IMG/VR virus record: IMGVR_UViG_3300042881_002504
Span: 1-22,612 of that record
Reading direction: 5' to 3' (one strand)
Length of the DNA: 22,612 nt
From: a virus
The translations under genes were made by a program, and so were the position numbers. How positions within the stretch are numbered: position 1 is the stretch's first letter; each line of letters starts with the position of its first letter. The notes beneath the pieces were generated by a model. It saw nothing but the letters and a program-made list of their open reading frames with translations, was not told the DNA's origin and searched no databases. Below are positions 3,552 through 18,806 of the stretch, in pieces.

Positions 3552-4334
3552 ATGAGTAAAGAACTAACGGTAACAAATAATTTAGAGATGCTTAACACGT
3601 TGCGAAATACCGTGGCACCAGGGCTAACTGACCCAGAGTTTTTGTTGTTTGCTGAGATGTGCAGGGCAACCGGCCTTAATCCGGCCACAAAAGAGATTTG
3701 GGCTATCAAGGTAAATGGACGCTTGCAGCTAATGACGGGCATTAATGGCTTCTTAAAGATAGCTAATAGCCACCCTCAGTTTGATGGGATGGAAGTCACG
3801 TTTGAGTGGGAGGACAAGCATCTTATGAGTGCTACAGCTAAAGTGTACCGCAAGGATAGGCGATTCCCTAGCATAGCTACGGCGTATATGAGCGAGTACG
3901 GCAAGAAAACTGCTATATGGGCTCAGATGCCGTCGGTGATGCTTTCCAAGTGCGCGAAGGGGTTGGCGATACGAGAGGCATTTATAAACGAGCTGGGCGG
4001 CCTCTATACCCAGGAAGAGATGCCGTCAGAGTTTGCTCCGCCGAAGGCATACGAGCCGCCACCAATAGATCACACGATCCATGGTGACGTTTATGAGCCT
4101 AGACCGGCAGGAACGCCTAAGCCTAAAGCGGTAAAAACCTTTTACGATACTAGCTCACTAGATGGTGATCAGCGTTTAGCGGCTGAGAAGTATCTTAAAA
4201 CATGCCAGGCGGTGCAGATAACTGAAACAATCTGGAGAGCGCCTATCCGGCTAAACAGGTTAACCCAGTGCATAACGGAGGATGTCAAAGATGTCAGTGA
4301 AGACGAAAAGATTGTTATTGAGCAGCAAGGTTAG
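3552..4334 (+). CDS. bet: RecT/Bet-family single-strand annealing protein
   Basis: 260 aa. Phage recombinase that coats single-stranded DNA and anneals it to a complementary strand, working with a 5'-3' exonuclease. Residues about 20-155 match the RecT/lambda Bet core: LTDPEFLLFAEMCRATGLNP, TKEIWAIKVNGRLQLMTGIN, QFDGMEVTFEW, VYRKDRRFPSIATAYMSEYG, then MLSKCAKGLAIREAF and GGLYTQEEMP. The order and spacing agree with lambda Bet, and the length is similar to Bet (261 aa). The tail after residue 165 is Pro-rich and variable, as usual. AGAGGAAA precedes the ATG. Neighbours include an SSB-tailed protein and PD-(D/E)XK-type proteins that may act in the same pathway. No classic RecE or lambda Exo gene is seen. 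Confidence 0.92.
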   Translation: MSKELTVTNNLEMLNTLRNTVAPGLTDPEFLLFAEMCRATGLNPATKEIWAIKVNGRLQLMTGINGFLKIANSHPQFDGMEVTFEWEDKHLMSATAKVYRKDRRFPSIATAYMSEYGKKTAIWAQMPSVMLSKCAKGLAIREAFINELGGLYTQEEMPSEFAPPKAYEPPPIDHTIHGDVYEPRPAGTPKPKAVKTFYDTSSLDGDQRLAAEKYLKTCQAVQITETIWRAPIRLNRLTQCITEDVKDVSEDEKIVIEQQG

Positions 4335-8113: not shown

Positions 8114-8410
8114 ATGAAGGTAAAATTAGCAGAGGCGTTGCTCCGCCGTAAGGAGCTACAAGGAAAAGTCGATATGCTTAAGCACATACAGGACAAGAAC
8201 CTGTTTGAGGTAAAAGCACAGAGACGACAAGTGACTGAGAGCTTGGACGATATTATCGCTCAGGTTCCTAAGCTAACAGCTTCGCAGGTTACTTCTGAGT
8301 ACGACTGGCACTCTCGCCAACTTCGGTTGGTAGATTCTGCAATCCAGCAAGCAAATTGGACTTGCGAGATTGAAGTCGATCAGACTGTAATGAGCGACTA
8401 TAAGGCGTAA
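8114..8410 (+). CDS. DUF6847/DIP1984-like protein
   Basis: 98 aa, GGAGGGA upstream. The sequence LAEALLRRKELQGKVDMLKH, the middle RRQVTESLDDIIAQVPKLTA and the end YDWHSRQLRLVDSAIQQANW match a family of small all-helical proteins (DUF6847, DIP1984-like) found in bacteria and phages. Structures of relatives are helical bundles; no activity is known. It is the last protein gene before the RNA segment. Confidence 0.75.
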   Translation: MKVKLAEALLRRKELQGKVDMLKHIQDKNLFEVKAQRRQVTESLDDIIAQVPKLTASQVTSEYDWHSRQLRLVDSAIQQANWTCEIEVDQTVMSDYKA

Positions 8411-8416
8411 TAAATA

Positions 8417-8762
8417 AGTTGGTGAGTTAGTGCAAGGATGGAGGTGTGCTGAGGAAAGCGTTCTCCTGCGCTTAATCAGGTAGGTGTTGCGCAACATCGT
8501 AGACGTTCGCCATTAGGAAATGGCAATACAGCAAAAATAGCTCAGCTGGTTAGAGCGAGAGATTGATAATCTTTAGGTCATTGGTTCGAGTCCAATATTT
8601 TGCCCCCGTAATGTGGATATGGGAAAACTGAAAGGAATTCCGACTATCTGAACAACGAACTGCGAAGAAGCGTATATCCGAATTGATGAACATGAGAACT
8701 GGTACTGAGTTAATTCCGAATAACCAACCTCAGGATTCCTACCTTGCATTAACTCACCAACT
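8417..8762 (+). ncRNA. Candidate structured RNA closed by a 21-bp stem and containing a tRNA
   Basis: 8417-8437 pairs with 8742-8762 without interruption: 20 Watson-Crick pairs and one G-U. Inside lie hairpin 8440-8466 (about 10 bp, loop GAGGAA), hairpin 8483-8498 (GGTGTT/AACATC, loop GCGC), perfect hairpin 8509-8524 (GCCATT/AATGGC, loop AGGA), the whole tRNA-Ile (8531-8604), a stem 8615-8620/8674-8679, and AGGAAT (8633-8638) with ATTCCT (8735-8740) near the closing stem. No credible protein gene lies here. The 3' strand ends two bases before tRNA-Ser, whose 5' processing would free the RNA. Large phage RNAs near tRNAs (GOLLD, ROOL) are known; this is shorter and I cannot match it to them. 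Confidence 0.7.
8531..8604 (+). tRNA. tRNA-Ile (GAT), without encoded CCA
   Basis: Cloverleaf read by eye: acceptor 8531-8537 with 8597-8603 (six pairs, the seventh is A-A), D arm GCTC/GAGC, anticodon stem AGAGA/TCTTT with loop TTGATAA (anticodon GAT at 8565-8567), variable loop AGGTC, T arm ATTGG-TTCGAGT-CCAAT. The discriminator is C (8604), followed by CCC rather than CCA; bacterial tRNA-Ile normally has A73. It sits inside the long-stem RNA. Confidence 0.85.
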
Positions 8763-8764
8763 AC

Positions 8765-8850
8765 GGAAGAGTGGATGAGCGGTTTAAATCACCTCACTGC
8801 TAACGAGGAGTGTTTCGGCACCGCAGGTTCGAATCCTGCCTCTTCCGCCA
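8765..8850 (+). tRNA. tRNA-Ser (GCT), CCA encoded
   Basis: Acceptor GGAAGAG (8765-8771) with CTCTTCC (8840-8846), discriminator G, CCA at 8848-8850. Anticodon loop CTGCTAA gives anticodon GCT, reading AGC/AGT. There is a long variable arm (GTG-CAC pairing), as required for Ser tRNAs, and T arm GCAGG-TTCGAAT-CCTGC. One A-C mismatch closes the anticodon stem. Looks functional. Confidence 0.92.
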
Positions 8851-8859
8851 ACAGGTTTC

Positions 8860-8927
8860 GGGCTGTAAGTGGAGATTTAACAACCTCCTCCAAAGAGACA
8901 TCCTCTCTGCTTACGGCCCACTTTTTT
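8860..8927 (+). terminator. Intrinsic terminator after the RNA segment
   Basis: GGGCTGTAAG (8860-8869) pairs with CTTACGGCCC (8910-8919), ten pairs including one G-U, with an inner AGAG/CTCT hairpin in the 40-nt loop, then A-C and six T (8922-8927). The ribosome binding site of the next gene starts right after the T-tract, so downstream expression needs read-through. Confidence 0.7.
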
Positions 8928-8937
8928 AAGGTAAGCA

Positions 8938-9219: not shown

Positions 9220-9298
9220 GGACGTGTTCTACGCAAGCGAGAACAAAGGCACCATTAAAGGCGTGAAGAAGAAAAAGAAGAAGTCCAGTGGTAAATAG
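9149..9298 (+). CDS. Short basic phage protein (MPLTKKG family)
   Basis: GTG start at 9149 with a perfect AAGGAG 6 nt upstream; TAG at 9296-9298. The 49-aa product starts MPLTKKGLRIRQAMEKYYGK, continues with DVFYASENKGTIKGV and ends in a lysine-rich tail. I recognise this as a very common small phage protein, often near terminase or resolvase genes, with no known activity; the lysine tail suggests nucleic-acid contact. It overlaps the preceding and following genes. Confidence 0.7.
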   Translation: MPLTKKGLRIRQAMEKYYGKEKGEDVFYASENKGTIKGVKKKKKKSSGK

Positions 9299-9620
9299 TA
9301 GAGCCAAGGGCGCATCAGGCGAGCGAGAGCTGGCAAACAAACTAAAAGAGCATGGCTTTACTGCCAGGAGAACTCAACAGTTCTGCGGCAAGGCTGGCGA
9401 CTCTGATGTAGTATGCGAAGAGCTTGATAGCTATCATATAGAGGTTAAGCGAGTACAGAACCTTAACGTGGATAAGGCTATAGACCAAGCAACAAGAGAT
9501 TGCGGTGACAAAACTCCAATAGTATGCCATCGTAAGAATAACCGGCCTTGGCTGGTAACTATGTATATCGAGGACTTTTTAGCCTTGGTTCAATGCAAGA
9601 CGAGACCCCCATTAAGCTAA
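9288..9620 (+). CDS. Holliday-junction-resolvase-like PD-(D/E)XK nuclease
   Basis: 110 aa, GTG start at 9288 inside the end of the previous gene. The N-terminal pattern SRAKGASGERELANKLKEHG and the core Glu12, Asp40 and E52-V53-K54 (YHIEVKRVQN) give a complete PD-(D/E)XK metal-dependent nuclease site, followed by QATRDCGDKTPIVCHRKNN and a strand WLVTMY. Such proteins are usually called phage Holliday junction resolvases: they cut branched DNA made in recombination or replication before packaging. This fits the annealing-recombination set upstream. A general endonuclease role cannot be excluded. Confidence 0.78.
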   Translation: MVNSRAKGASGERELANKLKEHGFTARRTQQFCGKAGDSDVVCEELDSYHIEVKRVQNLNVDKAIDQATRDCGDKTPIVCHRKNNRPWLVTMYIEDFLALVQCKTRPPLS

Positions 9621-12489: not shown

Positions 12490-15189
12490 TTATGCCTCTA
12501 CTAAATTATTTAACTTTTCTAAATTATTTAAAACTTTTGTAACATACAAATATGTTTCTTCAGGAACTCCATAGCGACTATTTTTAGGCGCTCCTGCACG
12601 TTCTTTAATTTTAGAGTTTTGTTTGTATTTTACACCAAGTCGTTTAACTATTGTTTCCCAATCGTTGCTTTTAGCATCCGATATAGCAGACCTAATACTA
12701 CCTGGTCCCCAGTTGTATGCCGCTAATCCTAGCTTAACATCATCAAACGCATTGATTTGTTGTTGAAGATACTTACTACCACCTTCTACGTTTTGTTGTG
12801 GATCGGACGGGTCTACTCCTAACATTTTAGCCGTAGCTGGCATAAGCTGCATTAGCCCACTAGCGCCCTTAGAACTTACAGCGTAAGGATTACCAGCCGA
12901 TTCTACTTGCATTACAGCTTTAACAAGATTAACCGGAGCAAACCCTTCACCTGTTGGAATGCTTATATTTTGCTTGCCTACCTTTATTTCTTGCTTTTCT
13001 GAAGGGATAGGTTTTACCGGTTGTACTGGCTCTTCTTGTCCTAATGCTTTTAGGATTTCTTCATCTGTATAATTAGAGTCGGCTAATTCAGAAGTCAAAG
13101 ACGCAGTTCCGATTGCGCCCATGCCAAGCTGCTTGCTTCGCTTTGCTTTGAGCTGCTCTTGCATAATATCTAAGCCCGCCGCTGTTTCTCGTCCTGCGGC
13201 TGCTCCTGCAACTCCACCAGCTTTCTCTCCAGCTTGCCTCGCGCCACGCAATGCAGAAGTTAGTTGGCTAATACGTCCAAGCGTTTCTAATCCTTGCTCA
13301 GGCTCTCTAAATAATAGCTGTGCATAGTTTTTGTAAAATTCATCATCTTGGCGCCCACCAAGCATTTTAGACAACAACTTACCAGCAGCTCCTACAGGGT
13401 CTTTTCCAGCTTGTATTGCGCTTCTAATAGCTCCAAAGCTTTCCCCTAATGCTTCTTCTGCTTGTCTTAATGGAGTAGTAGGCGATCCCGCAAAATACTC
13501 TCTTTGCCCTTTTAAAATGTTTTGCTCTATTGTCAGAGGCTCAATAACAGAGTCATATTTATCACCAAGAGCTGCACGTAGTTTATTACGTAGATCTGGC
13601 GAGCCAATAATTTTATTTATTGGATTTCTTTCATCCTGTGCTTTTTCTACCGATCTTTGTAAATACGCGCGAACTCCCGACTCCCACTCGTCAAGTTTGC
13701 CAGCAGCAACAAAGTCATCCCTAAGGCTCGAAATAACATCAGCATCAAGAGCAAACACTCTGCCGATAGTCTCTGGTCTATCAGGGCTTACATTAGCCAA
13801 AAAGCCTATTTTACTTTGCTCTTTAGCCGTTAAGCCTTTAGACATTTGCGCAAAGGTATTAGTAGCTTGTGCGTAATCAGGCGATTCTTCTTTAATTGCT
13901 TTCATTAAAGCATTACGAGCGTCAGTAACTTTGCCAGCAGTAAACTTATTATCTAACGATCTGGCCTTTCCACTTAAATACTGTTGCGCCTGATGCAGTA
14001 CTTCTAAACTTGTATCTGATTTCTCCGCAAGCTCAGGGAGTTCTTTTCTTACGGCCTTAATAGCTTGTTGGATGCGAGGATTTGTCTGTACTAACTTAAC
14101 GGCACTTTCTGTTGTTAATTCTGGAGTGCGTTCAAATGCGGCTTCGTAAAGCCCTCTTGTAGCTTCTTTTCTAGCGACTCCCAACTCATCAAGTAAAGAT
14201 TTTGCACCTTCTACAAGCTTATTAGCTCCAGCGTTTACGTTACGAACTGGCGCAACTTTATCTAGTGTTTCGGTAATGCGATTAACTGCATTTGCTGCAC
14301 GTTCTTCAATAGCCGTCTTAGCTACTTCAATAGAAGCTGGATAGTTAGCAATTAATTTAGCTTGTTGATATAAAGCAGGAGAGCCTACAGCTTCGGGAAT
14401 AAATACAGGTTTGCCAAGCTCTCCAGCTCTTTGTAACGCTACTTCTGCGTTTGGTATAGTTTCTGGAGCTGTTTGCGATAATATTTTAGCAAGCTGAATT
14501 TCTTCAGGTGTATATTTTGCGCCACCTAATGTAATAGCGCCACGTTCGCTTCCTGCTGTTGTGCCAGCACGAGCCAATACGCCGCCTAATGTTTCGGTAG
14601 CATATTGAGCAGCCTTGCCAATTACAGGGCCAGCAACGGCACCAGTACCGCCGCCCATAAGCCCACCAGCTAACCGGTCTCCTGGTTGAGCAGACGCCGC
14701 CCCATAAATACCGCCTTGAGCAGCGCCAATAGCCGCAAGTTCTGCTACAGTTGGGGCCGCTTTTCCAGTTGCTCCTAATAACAATCTTGAAGCAAGTCCA
14801 GGAGCTGCCATTGTAGCCGCTGGAATAGTTCCTGCTATACCACCAACAAGTTCAGATGCTAATGCAGTCCCAGGATAAGCAGAACGCATTGCCTCTCGTT
14901 CTGCTTGTTGTGCAGCGAGCTGCTCTGAATATGAAGGGCCACCAGTAAGAGCACTCAATCCCGCCAGAGCTTCGTCGGCTAGCCCTAAAGTTAATCCTTG
15001 CCCGCCAAAAGATAGCGCCGTCCCTAGTCGTCCGTATAAATCAACATCACTTTGAGCTTTTTGCACCGCTTGACGAGCAGCAGCAAACTCTGCGGCTTTA
15101 TCCGCAGGAATAGTTGGCGTCGAAGCGGTCGGCGCACTTATTCCTAATGCTTGCAATACTTCTGCGTCTGAGTAGGCGTTCTCGTCCAT
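12490..15189 (-). CDS. Internal virion/ejection protein with lytic transglycosylase domain
   Basis: 899 aa. Residues about 745-850 form a soluble lytic transglycosylase (SLT) domain: catalytic Glu763 in AVMQVESAGNP, then SSKGASGLMQLMPATAK, GGSKYLQQQI and LGLAAYNWGPG. It would cut peptidoglycan locally during DNA entry. The N-terminal part has Ala/Gly-rich hydrophobic stretches at about 100-200, typical of ejection proteins that cross membranes, followed by a long helical middle. The segment Y-[ST]-D-x-E-[IV]-L-x-A-L-G appears at residues 6-16 and again at 707-717. The size, position and domain resemble the large T7 gp16-like internal proteins. It is joined to the upstream gene by TAATG. Confidence 0.85.
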   Translation of the reverse strand: MDENAYSDAEVLQALGISAPTASTPTIPADKAAEFAAARQAVQKAQSDVDLYGRLGTALSFGGQGLTLGLADEALAGLSALTGGPSYSEQLAAQQAEREAMRSAYPGTALASELVGGIAGTIPAATMAAPGLASRLLLGATGKAAPTVAELAAIGAAQGGIYGAASAQPGDRLAGGLMGGGTGAVAGPVIGKAAQYATETLGGVLARAGTTAGSERGAITLGGAKYTPEEIQLAKILSQTAPETIPNAEVALQRAGELGKPVFIPEAVGSPALYQQAKLIANYPASIEVAKTAIEERAANAVNRITETLDKVAPVRNVNAGANKLVEGAKSLLDELGVARKEATRGLYEAAFERTPELTTESAVKLVQTNPRIQQAIKAVRKELPELAEKSDTSLEVLHQAQQYLSGKARSLDNKFTAGKVTDARNALMKAIKEESPDYAQATNTFAQMSKGLTAKEQSKIGFLANVSPDRPETIGRVFALDADVISSLRDDFVAAGKLDEWESGVRAYLQRSVEKAQDERNPINKIIGSPDLRNKLRAALGDKYDSVIEPLTIEQNILKGQREYFAGSPTTPLRQAEEALGESFGAIRSAIQAGKDPVGAAGKLLSKMLGGRQDDEFYKNYAQLLFREPEQGLETLGRISQLTSALRGARQAGEKAGGVAGAAAGRETAAGLDIMQEQLKAKRSKQLGMGAIGTASLTSELADSNYTDEEILKALGQEEPVQPVKPIPSEKQEIKVGKQNISIPTGEGFAPVNLVKAVMQVESAGNPYAVSSKGASGLMQLMPATAKMLGVDPSDPQQNVEGGSKYLQQQINAFDDVKLGLAAYNWGPGSIRSAISDAKSNDWETIVKRLGVKYKQNSKIKERAGAPKNSRYGVPEETYLYVTKVLNNLEKLNNLVEA

Positions 15190-17261: not shown

Positions 17262-18806
17262 TTATACCTGCCCGCCTAAATCGTAACGTATTTCAAAGCC
17301 ATAAATATCTAAGGTGGTATTCTTTATTGCACCACCAAACCGCACCGCCGCACAATGCCCCTGCCCCTTAACTGCGTACCTGTCAAACGTATATTCTACG
17401 TCAGCAGACCAGAGACTCCCCCAAGGGCTTCCCCAAGGTGTAAAGGTACTTGTAGGAGTTGTAACGCTTGTCACTACCGTTGACCTCTTAAAGTCAGTAT
17501 CTAAGCCTAAACTAAGGGTCACGCCTTTTTTAACTTTTAGCAACGGCCTTATATCTTTAAATGCTTTGTAGTTTCCTCTGCTACCGTAAAAGCTAAACGC
17601 AGTTCGTCCAGCAAAGGTAATAGCTTGGCCTGATGAGGTGGCAGTAATGGCATCAGCCTGGCCCGTTTCGCCCTTATAAACTATGCCAGTAAGGGATGCA
17701 TAAAACGGATGTTCAAATGCGTAGCAAGAAGAGTTAGCATGAGCCCCATCAAATAGTCTAAAAGTAGTCCAGCCTTTAGTGTCTAACGAGTACACTAGAA
17801 AGTAGTTCTCAGTGCTGGATTGAGGGACTGAGATATAAACCCGCCTACCTCTAGGCCATACAAAGCCAGACCAATCATGCGAAAAATTAAACGTCTCTGC
17901 GGCATTGGATATAATAGGATTAACCTTACCGCTTACCACCATTAAGGCTGATGCTGAGTCGCTTTGAAATAGTGCTGATATTGGTACTATACCGTCTTGA
18001 GTAACGATCCAAACGTCAGCATCTACTCTGATAAACGCTCTAAATCCTACCGGCTTGGCTATGTAATAATGAGCCACTAGGGACCAATCTGAAGGGCCAG
18101 TGCCGCTGTAAAAAACTAGCTCGCCCTCTGAGCTGCAAGCAAAGAACAAGTCTTGAGAGGTAGAAGCTGTCTGATTAGTGTAGCTACCAGCGAATAGCAA
18201 GTAGCCACCTTTGGTCATTACATACTTAATATCTAGAATCTCATCTAGCTTTGGAGAGCCGCCAGTTCCAGGTACATCAACTGAAGCATGTACCCAAACG
18301 GACATAGAGTTCTTTTGGACAAAGTAAAGCCTTCGCTTGTAAGCCGCTGCTGAAACTAGATTGCTTAATCCAGCGGAGCAGGTAAATGTTACGTTAGCAG
18401 CGTTGCCTGTGCCGGTATAAACTTGAGGAATATTTATGCCGTTACAAAGGTATAAGTTATTGGCAAATATCTCTGAGTTAAACCTGCTATCTGTATGCGG
18501 TGTTGGGTTAGTTACGGTCGATACTGTGCCGTCTGCTAGTATTTTATAAAGATTGCTATCAGTAGCAGCGATAAGATGCTTAGTTCCATCAGCAAGGGGA
18601 AGCTCCCGCATAAAGTTAATAGGGCTTGCAGGTATGCTAGTACCGCCAGTATTAAACTGAGTATACCCAAGTCTAACTGACGGTGCCCCCGCTCCAGGAA
18701 ATACGTTTACCAACTCCAACGCAAAGGATGGATCCATATTGTCTATTGGACTTACTGCGTCCAACCCTCCGTAAGGAGGTGACATTGTGAACCCTTGAAA
18801 TGCCAT
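17262..18806 (-). CDS. Beta-propeller-like tail hub/nozzle protein (P22 gp10-like candidate)
   Basis: 514 aa, beta-rich. It opens with MAFQGFTMSPPYGGLDAVSP, VNVFPGAGAPSVRLGYTQF, a start typical of podovirus tail proteins that sit under the portal ring. Repeated blade-like units follow: HLIAATDSNLYKILADGTVS, NLYLCNGINIPQVYTGTGNA, RRLYFVQKNSMSVWVHASV and DVWIVTQDGIVPISALF, up to a C-terminal beta sandwich (KAFKDIRPLLKVKKGVTLSL). P22 gp10 has the same propeller style and function, plugging the DNA channel. The assignment rests on pattern and on the gp4-like adaptor nearby. Joined to the upstream gene by TAATG. Confidence 0.6.
   Translation of the reverse strand: MAFQGFTMSPPYGGLDAVSPIDNMDPSFALELVNVFPGAGAPSVRLGYTQFNTGGTSIPASPINFMRELPLADGTKHLIAATDSNLYKILADGTVSTVTNPTPHTDSRFNSEIFANNLYLCNGINIPQVYTGTGNAANVTFTCSAGLSNLVSAAAYKRRLYFVQKNSMSVWVHASVDVPGTGGSPKLDEILDIKYVMTKGGYLLFAGSYTNQTASTSQDLFFACSSEGELVFYSGTGPSDWSLVAHYYIAKPVGFRAFIRVDADVWIVTQDGIVPISALFQSDSASALMVVSGKVNPIISNAAETFNFSHDWSGFVWPRGRRVYISVPQSSTENYFLVYSLDTKGWTTFRLFDGAHANSSCYAFEHPFYASLTGIVYKGETGQADAITATSSGQAITFAGRTAFSFYGSRGNYKAFKDIRPLLKVKKGVTLSLGLDTDFKRSTVVTSVTTPTSTFTPWGSPWGSLWSADVEYTFDRYAVKGQGHCAAVRFGGAIKNTTLDIYGFEIRYDLGGQV

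Follow-up and report, generated by a model that had tools for sequence, protein, structure and literature searches.

GOLLD and ROOL are non-coding RNAs of phages and bacteria, about 600-800 nt long, that contain pseudoknots and lie near tRNAs. In GOLLD, tRNAs are sometimes found in a linker and ribosome binding has been observed in pull-downs, and in both OLE and GOLLD the switching of a loop from GGCC to GAUC or AGCU is evidence for intermolecular kissing (PMC12286853). The bacterial Y RNA YrlA (RF02553) carries a tRNA-mimic domain of permuted D, T, and acceptor parts, with a closed acceptor and entry via the anticodon-stem side; this domain is acted on by tRNA-modification enzymes, and PNPase binding has been described (PMC8394870), while competitive inhibition of an anticodon nuclease has been suggested for the Y RNA tRNA-like domain (PMC7790460). 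In two-piece transfer-messenger RNA (tmRNA), the gene order is permuted around a tRNA-like domain, and the permuted tRNAs of algae and archaea are spliced at bulge-helix-bulge motifs into functional tRNA (PMC3978253). Here, we analyzed an element at positions 8417-8762 of a viral DNA of 22,612 nt (IMG/VR record IMGVR_UViG_3300042881_002504, positions 1 to 22,612; this whole stretch is referred to as the window), in which a long stem encloses a predicted pseudoknot, a hairpin with a self-complementary loop, a tRNA module, and a repeat-containing right domain beside a DUF6847 gene. A conserved RNA class of this anatomy is almost certainly real, judging from its relatives, and the class, a widespread family of phage RNAs, is apparently unrecorded.

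Relatives were collected by a protein-guided search with DUF6847, which yielded 27, then 80 IMG/VR loci, with 4 loci in bacterial genomes, including Legionella maceachernii (individual loci are given L numbers). Alignments were prepared with MAFFT and simple parsers, and covariation was counted without phylogenetic weighting. Two models were built: R1, a covariance model for the left domain, and R2, which describes the right domain by sequence alone. R1 matched at E ≤ 0.013 in almost all 82 sources, nearly all of them DUF6847 loci, with no match in L232 and L260. R2 independently detected the right domain, including that of the held-out loci L232, L261, and L262. The element is about 270-430 nt long across the family. 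The features of the window element and its two neighbors are as follows, each with its basis.

8114-8410, plus strand: DUF6847 (PF20935) gene, 98 aa, the constant neighbor of the RNA (Pfam 33.1 bits, cut-off 27)
8417-8437, plus strand: 5' arm of the outer stem P1a, AGTTGGTGAGTTAGTGCAAGG, 21 bp (sequence and covariation)
8742-8762, plus strand: 3' arm of P1a, CCTTGCATTAACTCACCAACT (sequence and covariation)
8449-8454, plus strand: 5' arm of the inner stem P1b, CTGAGG (sequence; comparison with relatives by eye)
8728-8733, plus strand: 3' arm of P1b, CCTCAG (sequence; comparison with relatives by eye)
8456-8473, plus strand: left pseudoknot stem s1, AAGCG 8456-8460 with CGCTT 8469-8473 (family parse)
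8465-8480, plus strand: left pseudoknot stem s2, CCTG 8465-8468 with CAGG 8477-8480 (family parse)
8483-8498, plus strand: putative dimerization (kissing) hairpin, 6 bp, loop GCGC 8489-8492 (palindrome-preserving covariation)
8509-8524, plus strand: short hairpin GCCATT/AATGGC on the 5' side of the tRNA (sequence and minimum free energy)
8531-8606, plus strand: tRNA-Ile(GAT)-like module in a variable slot (ARAGORN; Rfam tRNA, 60.9 bits)
8635-8726, plus strand: right domain with a CCGAnUA / GAAC repeat of ~8-nt period and the 3' end UAACCA (alignment A4; R2, E 1.9e-16)
8765-8850, plus strand: free-standing tRNA-Ser(GCT) with a 7-bp acceptor and encoded GCCA, a neighbor outside the fold (ARAGORN and Rfam)

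The initial annotation, made from the window alone, had described a 21-bp long-range stem closing a region with short hairpins and a complete tRNA-Ile. The stem was exactly as claimed: the arms of P1a lie 304 nt apart and form 21 bp, including one G-U. Both ARAGORN and Rfam placed tRNA-Ile(GAT) inside it, and short hairpins were also present, including 8483-8498 and 8509-8524. The minimum free energy of 8410-8765 was -115 kcal/mol, compared with -87.1 ± 5.2 kcal/mol in shuffled sequences (z = -5.4), and none of 100 shuffles was as low. The length of P1a in the family ranges from 8 to 35 bp. Comparison among members gave stronger evidence than the folding energy. In 52 non-identical outer-stem helices, the members' own arms were 97.6% paired, a value somewhat favored by the best-match search used to locate the helices, versus 44% with arms exchanged between members. 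The contrast is large despite this search bias, and the outer-stem arms change in a compensated fashion across the relatives. P1a and P1b are separated by an internal loop in which GGCG faces GA in most relatives (by eye). The left H-type pseudoknot could be parsed in 47 of 49 dereplicated members, with 19 different 5' strands of s1 and 34 of s2, and RNAalifold reported compensatory changes at 9/9 predicted pairs, including all four pairs of s2. These results strongly support the predicted fold, with what appears to be massive covariation in the outer stem and the left pseudoknot. A stretch in the left part, GAGGAAAGC, resembles a conserved motif of RNase P RNA, yet cmscan to E = 10 found no RNase P RNA.

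The hairpin that follows the pseudoknot, about 6 bp long in the family, bears a 4-nt loop that was self-complementary in 41 of the 43 scorable members, that is, those with an even-length loop. Thirty-seven of these loops were strictly Watson-Crick, against a chance of 1 in 16. About ten different palindromes occur (GGCC, CCGG, GCGC, UGCA, GUAC, AGCU, UCGA, GAUC, and ACGU), and the exceptions are mainly hairpins misplaced by the script; in L219, inspection by eye gave CUAG. Of 28 stems of this hairpin, at least 17 include G-U pairs, which rules out a DNA operator or other DNA palindrome in place of an RNA hairpin. A symmetric kissing loop that switches among palindromes has been used to recognize homo-oligomeric phage RNAs (PMC12286853), and the same behavior was found here. 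Since GOLLD and OLE share this signature, the RNA probably self-associates through its palindromic loop as a homodimer or a larger assembly.

In the slot occupied by tRNA-Ile in the window, relatives contain a linear tRNA, a circularly permuted tRNA, an anticodon arm alone, or nothing recognizable. ARAGORN detected linear tRNA in 34 loci. After the slot was circularized, 17 loci gave a permuted tRNA, and 15 of these lack a linear one; the controls were clean (0/600 shuffled, 0/79 reversed). Additional permuted modules were recognized via the YrlA model in L024, L252, and L008. In the permuted modules, a loop caps the acceptor stem. It is often a tetraloop (GAAA, GAGA, TAAA, TTCA, TACA, or TAAG) but can be a longer linker, which makes charging and maturation by RNase P/Z seem unlikely. 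In members with the anticodon arm only (e.g., L205, L209, L210, and L212), its loop is typically CUGNUAA (by eye). As for the window tRNA-Ile, the acceptor has 6/7 pairs, position 73 is C, and CCA is not encoded. CCA can be added by an enzyme and need not be encoded. The acceptor was perfect in 3 of 30 embedded linear modules versus 8 of 11 free tRNAs from the same loci (Fisher p 2e-4), and CCA was encoded in 3/30 versus 5/11, respectively (Fisher p 0.02). The left domains of L005 and L006 are identical and their tRNA modules different, and several further close pairs differ chiefly within the slot. On sequence comparison, the slot is a swappable site for exchangeable tRNA modules. The earlier reading of a tRNA-containing structured RNA was thus borne out, but its proposal that excision of the tRNA would leave a split RNA finds no support as a general picture, because the slot of relatives holds capped permuted bodies or an anticodon arm only and because perfect acceptors and encoded CCA are each confined to 3/30 linear modules. 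The window tRNA-Ile itself may still be excised. Three main features lay beyond the reach of that annotation: the self-complementary loops, the exchange of tRNA modules, and a DUF6847 gene as partner.

Several further arrangements were seen in the inner region. One anticodon arm lies between two permuted tRNA upper halves in L021, L025, L228, and L250, as if excerpted from a tandem tRNA array, and in L221, L238, and L249 the linear tRNA-like module is followed by another T-arm-like hairpin (GTGGTTCGATTCCAC or similar). Many members (e.g., L013, L222, L244, and L227) have a pre-slot hairpin with CTGTAA(A) or CAGTAAA within its loop; the motif recurs in L023 and L027, where no hairpin is obvious. 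By eye, the embedded anticodons mostly read ANN codons (Ile, Asn, Ser-GCU, Lys, Thr, and Arg) plus Gln, and those for most G-starting codons are absent.

The right domain is 92 nt long with a mean column identity of 65% and near-invariant A positions (alignment A4). CGA spacing is enriched at 8, 15-16, and 22-23 nt. The domain folds less stably than shuffled sequences in 38 of 45 members; in the window and in the relatives of alignment A4, GG is almost absent and pairing is sparse. The repeat resembles an iterated motif for protein binding or tertiary structure, and the domain is probably a site for a (repeating) partner, perhaps DUF6847. The usual place of the RNA is directly downstream of the DUF6847 gene; in L225, L255, and L257, it lies upstream instead. 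No such RNA was found next to the full-length DIP1984-type genes of L267 and L268, two bacterial loci. The AlphaFold model of DUF6847 was weak (predicted local distance difference test score, 64), and its sole sensible PDB match was 3kdq, a protein of unknown function.

We then compared the element with described RNAs. In the window, cmscan against Rfam 15 gave only tRNAs at the gathering threshold, and raising E up to 10 added weak sub-threshold matches, mostly on the tRNAs. Searches of the relatives against Rfam gave nothing but tRNA, YrlA-like modules, an unrelated int-alpA match, and chance matches. The GOLLD and ROOL covariance models matched neither the window nor the relatives, including at permissive E-values where these were used, and the OLE covariance model did not place the element in that family. 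No description of the element was found in open-licence PMC papers, a search that did not extend to preprints. The earlier suggestions that the element is neither GOLLD nor ROOL and probably represents a new class therefore hold, since cmscan of the window gave tRNA alone apart from weak sub-threshold matches and the stem covaries. Like GOLLD and ROOL, the RNA is a non-coding RNA of phages or bacteria that contains a pseudoknot and lies near tRNAs, and it shares with GOLLD and OLE the alternation of a loop between palindromes, a homo-oligomer signature (PMC12286853). By contrast, it is shorter than GOLLD and ROOL, is coupled to DUF6847, and holds its tRNA module, often permuted, within a closed stem. 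The permuted modules resemble the tRNA-mimic domain of YrlA in permuted D/T/acceptor make-up, closed acceptor, and side of entry, and they matched it at E 1e-6 to 0.02, the best score being 44.3 bits of a 69-bit gathering threshold. Only this ~65-nt tRNA-like module matches YrlA well, and a permuted tRNA-like domain was found in the permuted members only, the window module being linear. As in the algal and archaeal circularly permuted tRNA genes, the 3' half of the permuted modules is encoded ahead of the 5' half; unlike in those genes, the acceptors are capped and the module lies inside a larger RNA. Two-piece tmRNA, which contains pseudoknots, likewise shows a permuted order around a tRNA-like domain, but no tmRNA match was obtained in any scan, and intact anticodon arms are present in our family.

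Taken together, the slot contents, the capped acceptors, and the missing acceptor pairs and CCA point to a scaffold that displays tRNA mimics rather than a carrier of an excisable tRNA. A non-chargeable mimic is the most probable form because most modules have no usable acceptor end, and a mimic role is likely in preference to tRNA supply. Overall, and with modest confidence, we favor a DUF6847-linked, self-associating phage RNA displaying non-chargeable tRNA mimics. The long outer stem encloses the left pseudoknot and the hairpin with the self-complementary loop, through which two RNA copies probably join into a homodimer or larger assembly. The conserved, mostly unpaired right domain probably binds a partner, perhaps DUF6847, and the variable slot presents a tRNA-shaped module (linear, permuted with a capped acceptor, or an anticodon arm) that most likely engages tRNA-binding factors during infection. 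The leading candidate targets would be host anticodon nucleases, through competition, or the ribosome, through occupation. The more specific proposal of a self-dimerizing scaffold with exchangeable, non-chargeable mimics, which would serve together with DUF6847 to counter tRNA-cleaving immunity or to bind the ribosome, is put forward tentatively, and a specific anti-nuclease target is possible but doubtful.

Several observations weigh against the favored interpretation. DUF6847 and the RNA are linked by association only. A loop of 4 nt is short for a kissing complex, and self-pairing may instead produce an extended duplex of the whole hairpin; the binomial value for the loop palindromes overstates their significance because the members are related. 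In addition, CCA is encoded by three embedded tRNAs (L004, L020, and L254), and a few modules have full acceptors, so that tRNA supply is possible for some members.

Among the candidate roles, the tRNA mimic ranks highest, followed by passive cargo in a GOLLD-like scaffold and then by tRNA supply. As passive cargo, the slot would be a tolerant linker of an RNA nanocage or scaffold of the kind proposed for GOLLD and ROOL, in which tRNA pieces are captured without selection. The phage setting near tRNAs, the pseudoknots, the palindromic kissing loops, and the tRNAs in a variable linker fit this explanation. However, the permuted modules keep paired acceptor stems and recognizable D and T arms, which suggests selection on tRNA shape, and the element is half the size of GOLLD and ROOL with one palindromic loop found; we consider this explanation unlikely. 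Somewhat less probable still is a tRNA carrier, in which the RNA serves as a precursor or a protecting scaffold until RNase P and RNase Z free a functional phage tRNA, with the split RNA of the initial annotation left behind as two pieces. The linear tRNAs, the three members with encoded CCA, and the free tRNA-Ser that adjoins the window element would suit such a carrier, whereas permuted modules with a capped acceptor and no anticodon loop of their own, members with the anticodon arm alone, the 27 of 30 linear modules without a perfect acceptor stem, and the C73 and absent CCA of the window tRNA-Ile would not. A phage Y RNA that binds Ro60 and recruits a nuclease such as PNPase through its tRNA-like domain is very unlikely: although a long terminal stem is present, no TROVE/Ro60 gene was found in 32 phage records, some of which are fragments, the strongest YrlA matches span model positions 23-89 rather than the Ro-binding stem, and YrlA has no pseudoknot, dimer loop, or right domain. 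Barely credible is a natural permuted intron-exon arrangement whose flanking halves form a self-splicing ribozyme that circularizes and matures a permuted tRNA, since the order (3' half ahead of 5' half within a long stem) and the anticodon-arm stems of L017 and L022, which fit the permuted body, are outweighed by the lack of any group I or group II model match (E ≤ 10 in the window, E ≤ 5 in the permuted members), by intact tRNAs in the same scaffold, and by anticodon arms that mismatch the body in L021, L024, and L025.

If it displays tRNA mimics, the RNA may fool or occupy host tRNA-handling machinery. It would join two ideas, that of homo-oligomeric phage RNAs with linker tRNAs (GOLLD and ROOL) and that of permuted-domain tRNA mimicry (Y RNA), and would enlarge the small set of ornate phage RNAs. 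Because the scaffold takes linear, permuted, or partial tRNAs, it offers a natural series on which part of a tRNA the phage needs, and DUF6847 gains an RNA as a testable partner. The suggestion concerning Y RNA and an anticodon nuclease (PMC7790460) makes that function directly testable here. Members are found in isolated Vibrio phages (1.264.O and the PS32B/PS35B group, 13 records, including L261 and L262), and expression, dimerization, and deletion can therefore be tested directly in 1.264.O and the PS32B group. R1 matches in the Vibrio phages were weak (E 0.05-0.09); by eye, L261 has the same layout with a GCGC loop. In L262, the RNA element is overlapped by an annotated hypothetical protein, VPHPS32B4_0038 of Vibrio phage PS32B-4 (3415-3624); this annotation is probably spurious. 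The family is also present in three bacterial genomes, and in Legionella the RNA and DUF6847 occur in the same single genome of 22. No phage record covered most of the window element in blastn, the listed matches all lying around the tRNA; blastn with the L016 element found nothing, and short-motif DNA-pattern scans gave mostly chance matches.

Around the window element, no promoter-like site was found in a search upstream. According to ARAGORN and Rfam, tRNA-Ser(GCT) starts 2 nt past the 3' arm of P1a. After this tRNA, at 8858-8930, lies an imperfect hairpin, GGGCTGTAAG...CTTACGGCCC, followed by ACTTTTTT, which could be a long-loop transcription terminator. Elsewhere in the window, a RecT/Bet-like annealing protein is encoded at 3552-4334 and a PDDEXK nuclease at 9288-9617, and large minus-strand genes at 12490-15189 and 17262-18806 have matches to lytic tail/endolysin families and to an amidase family.
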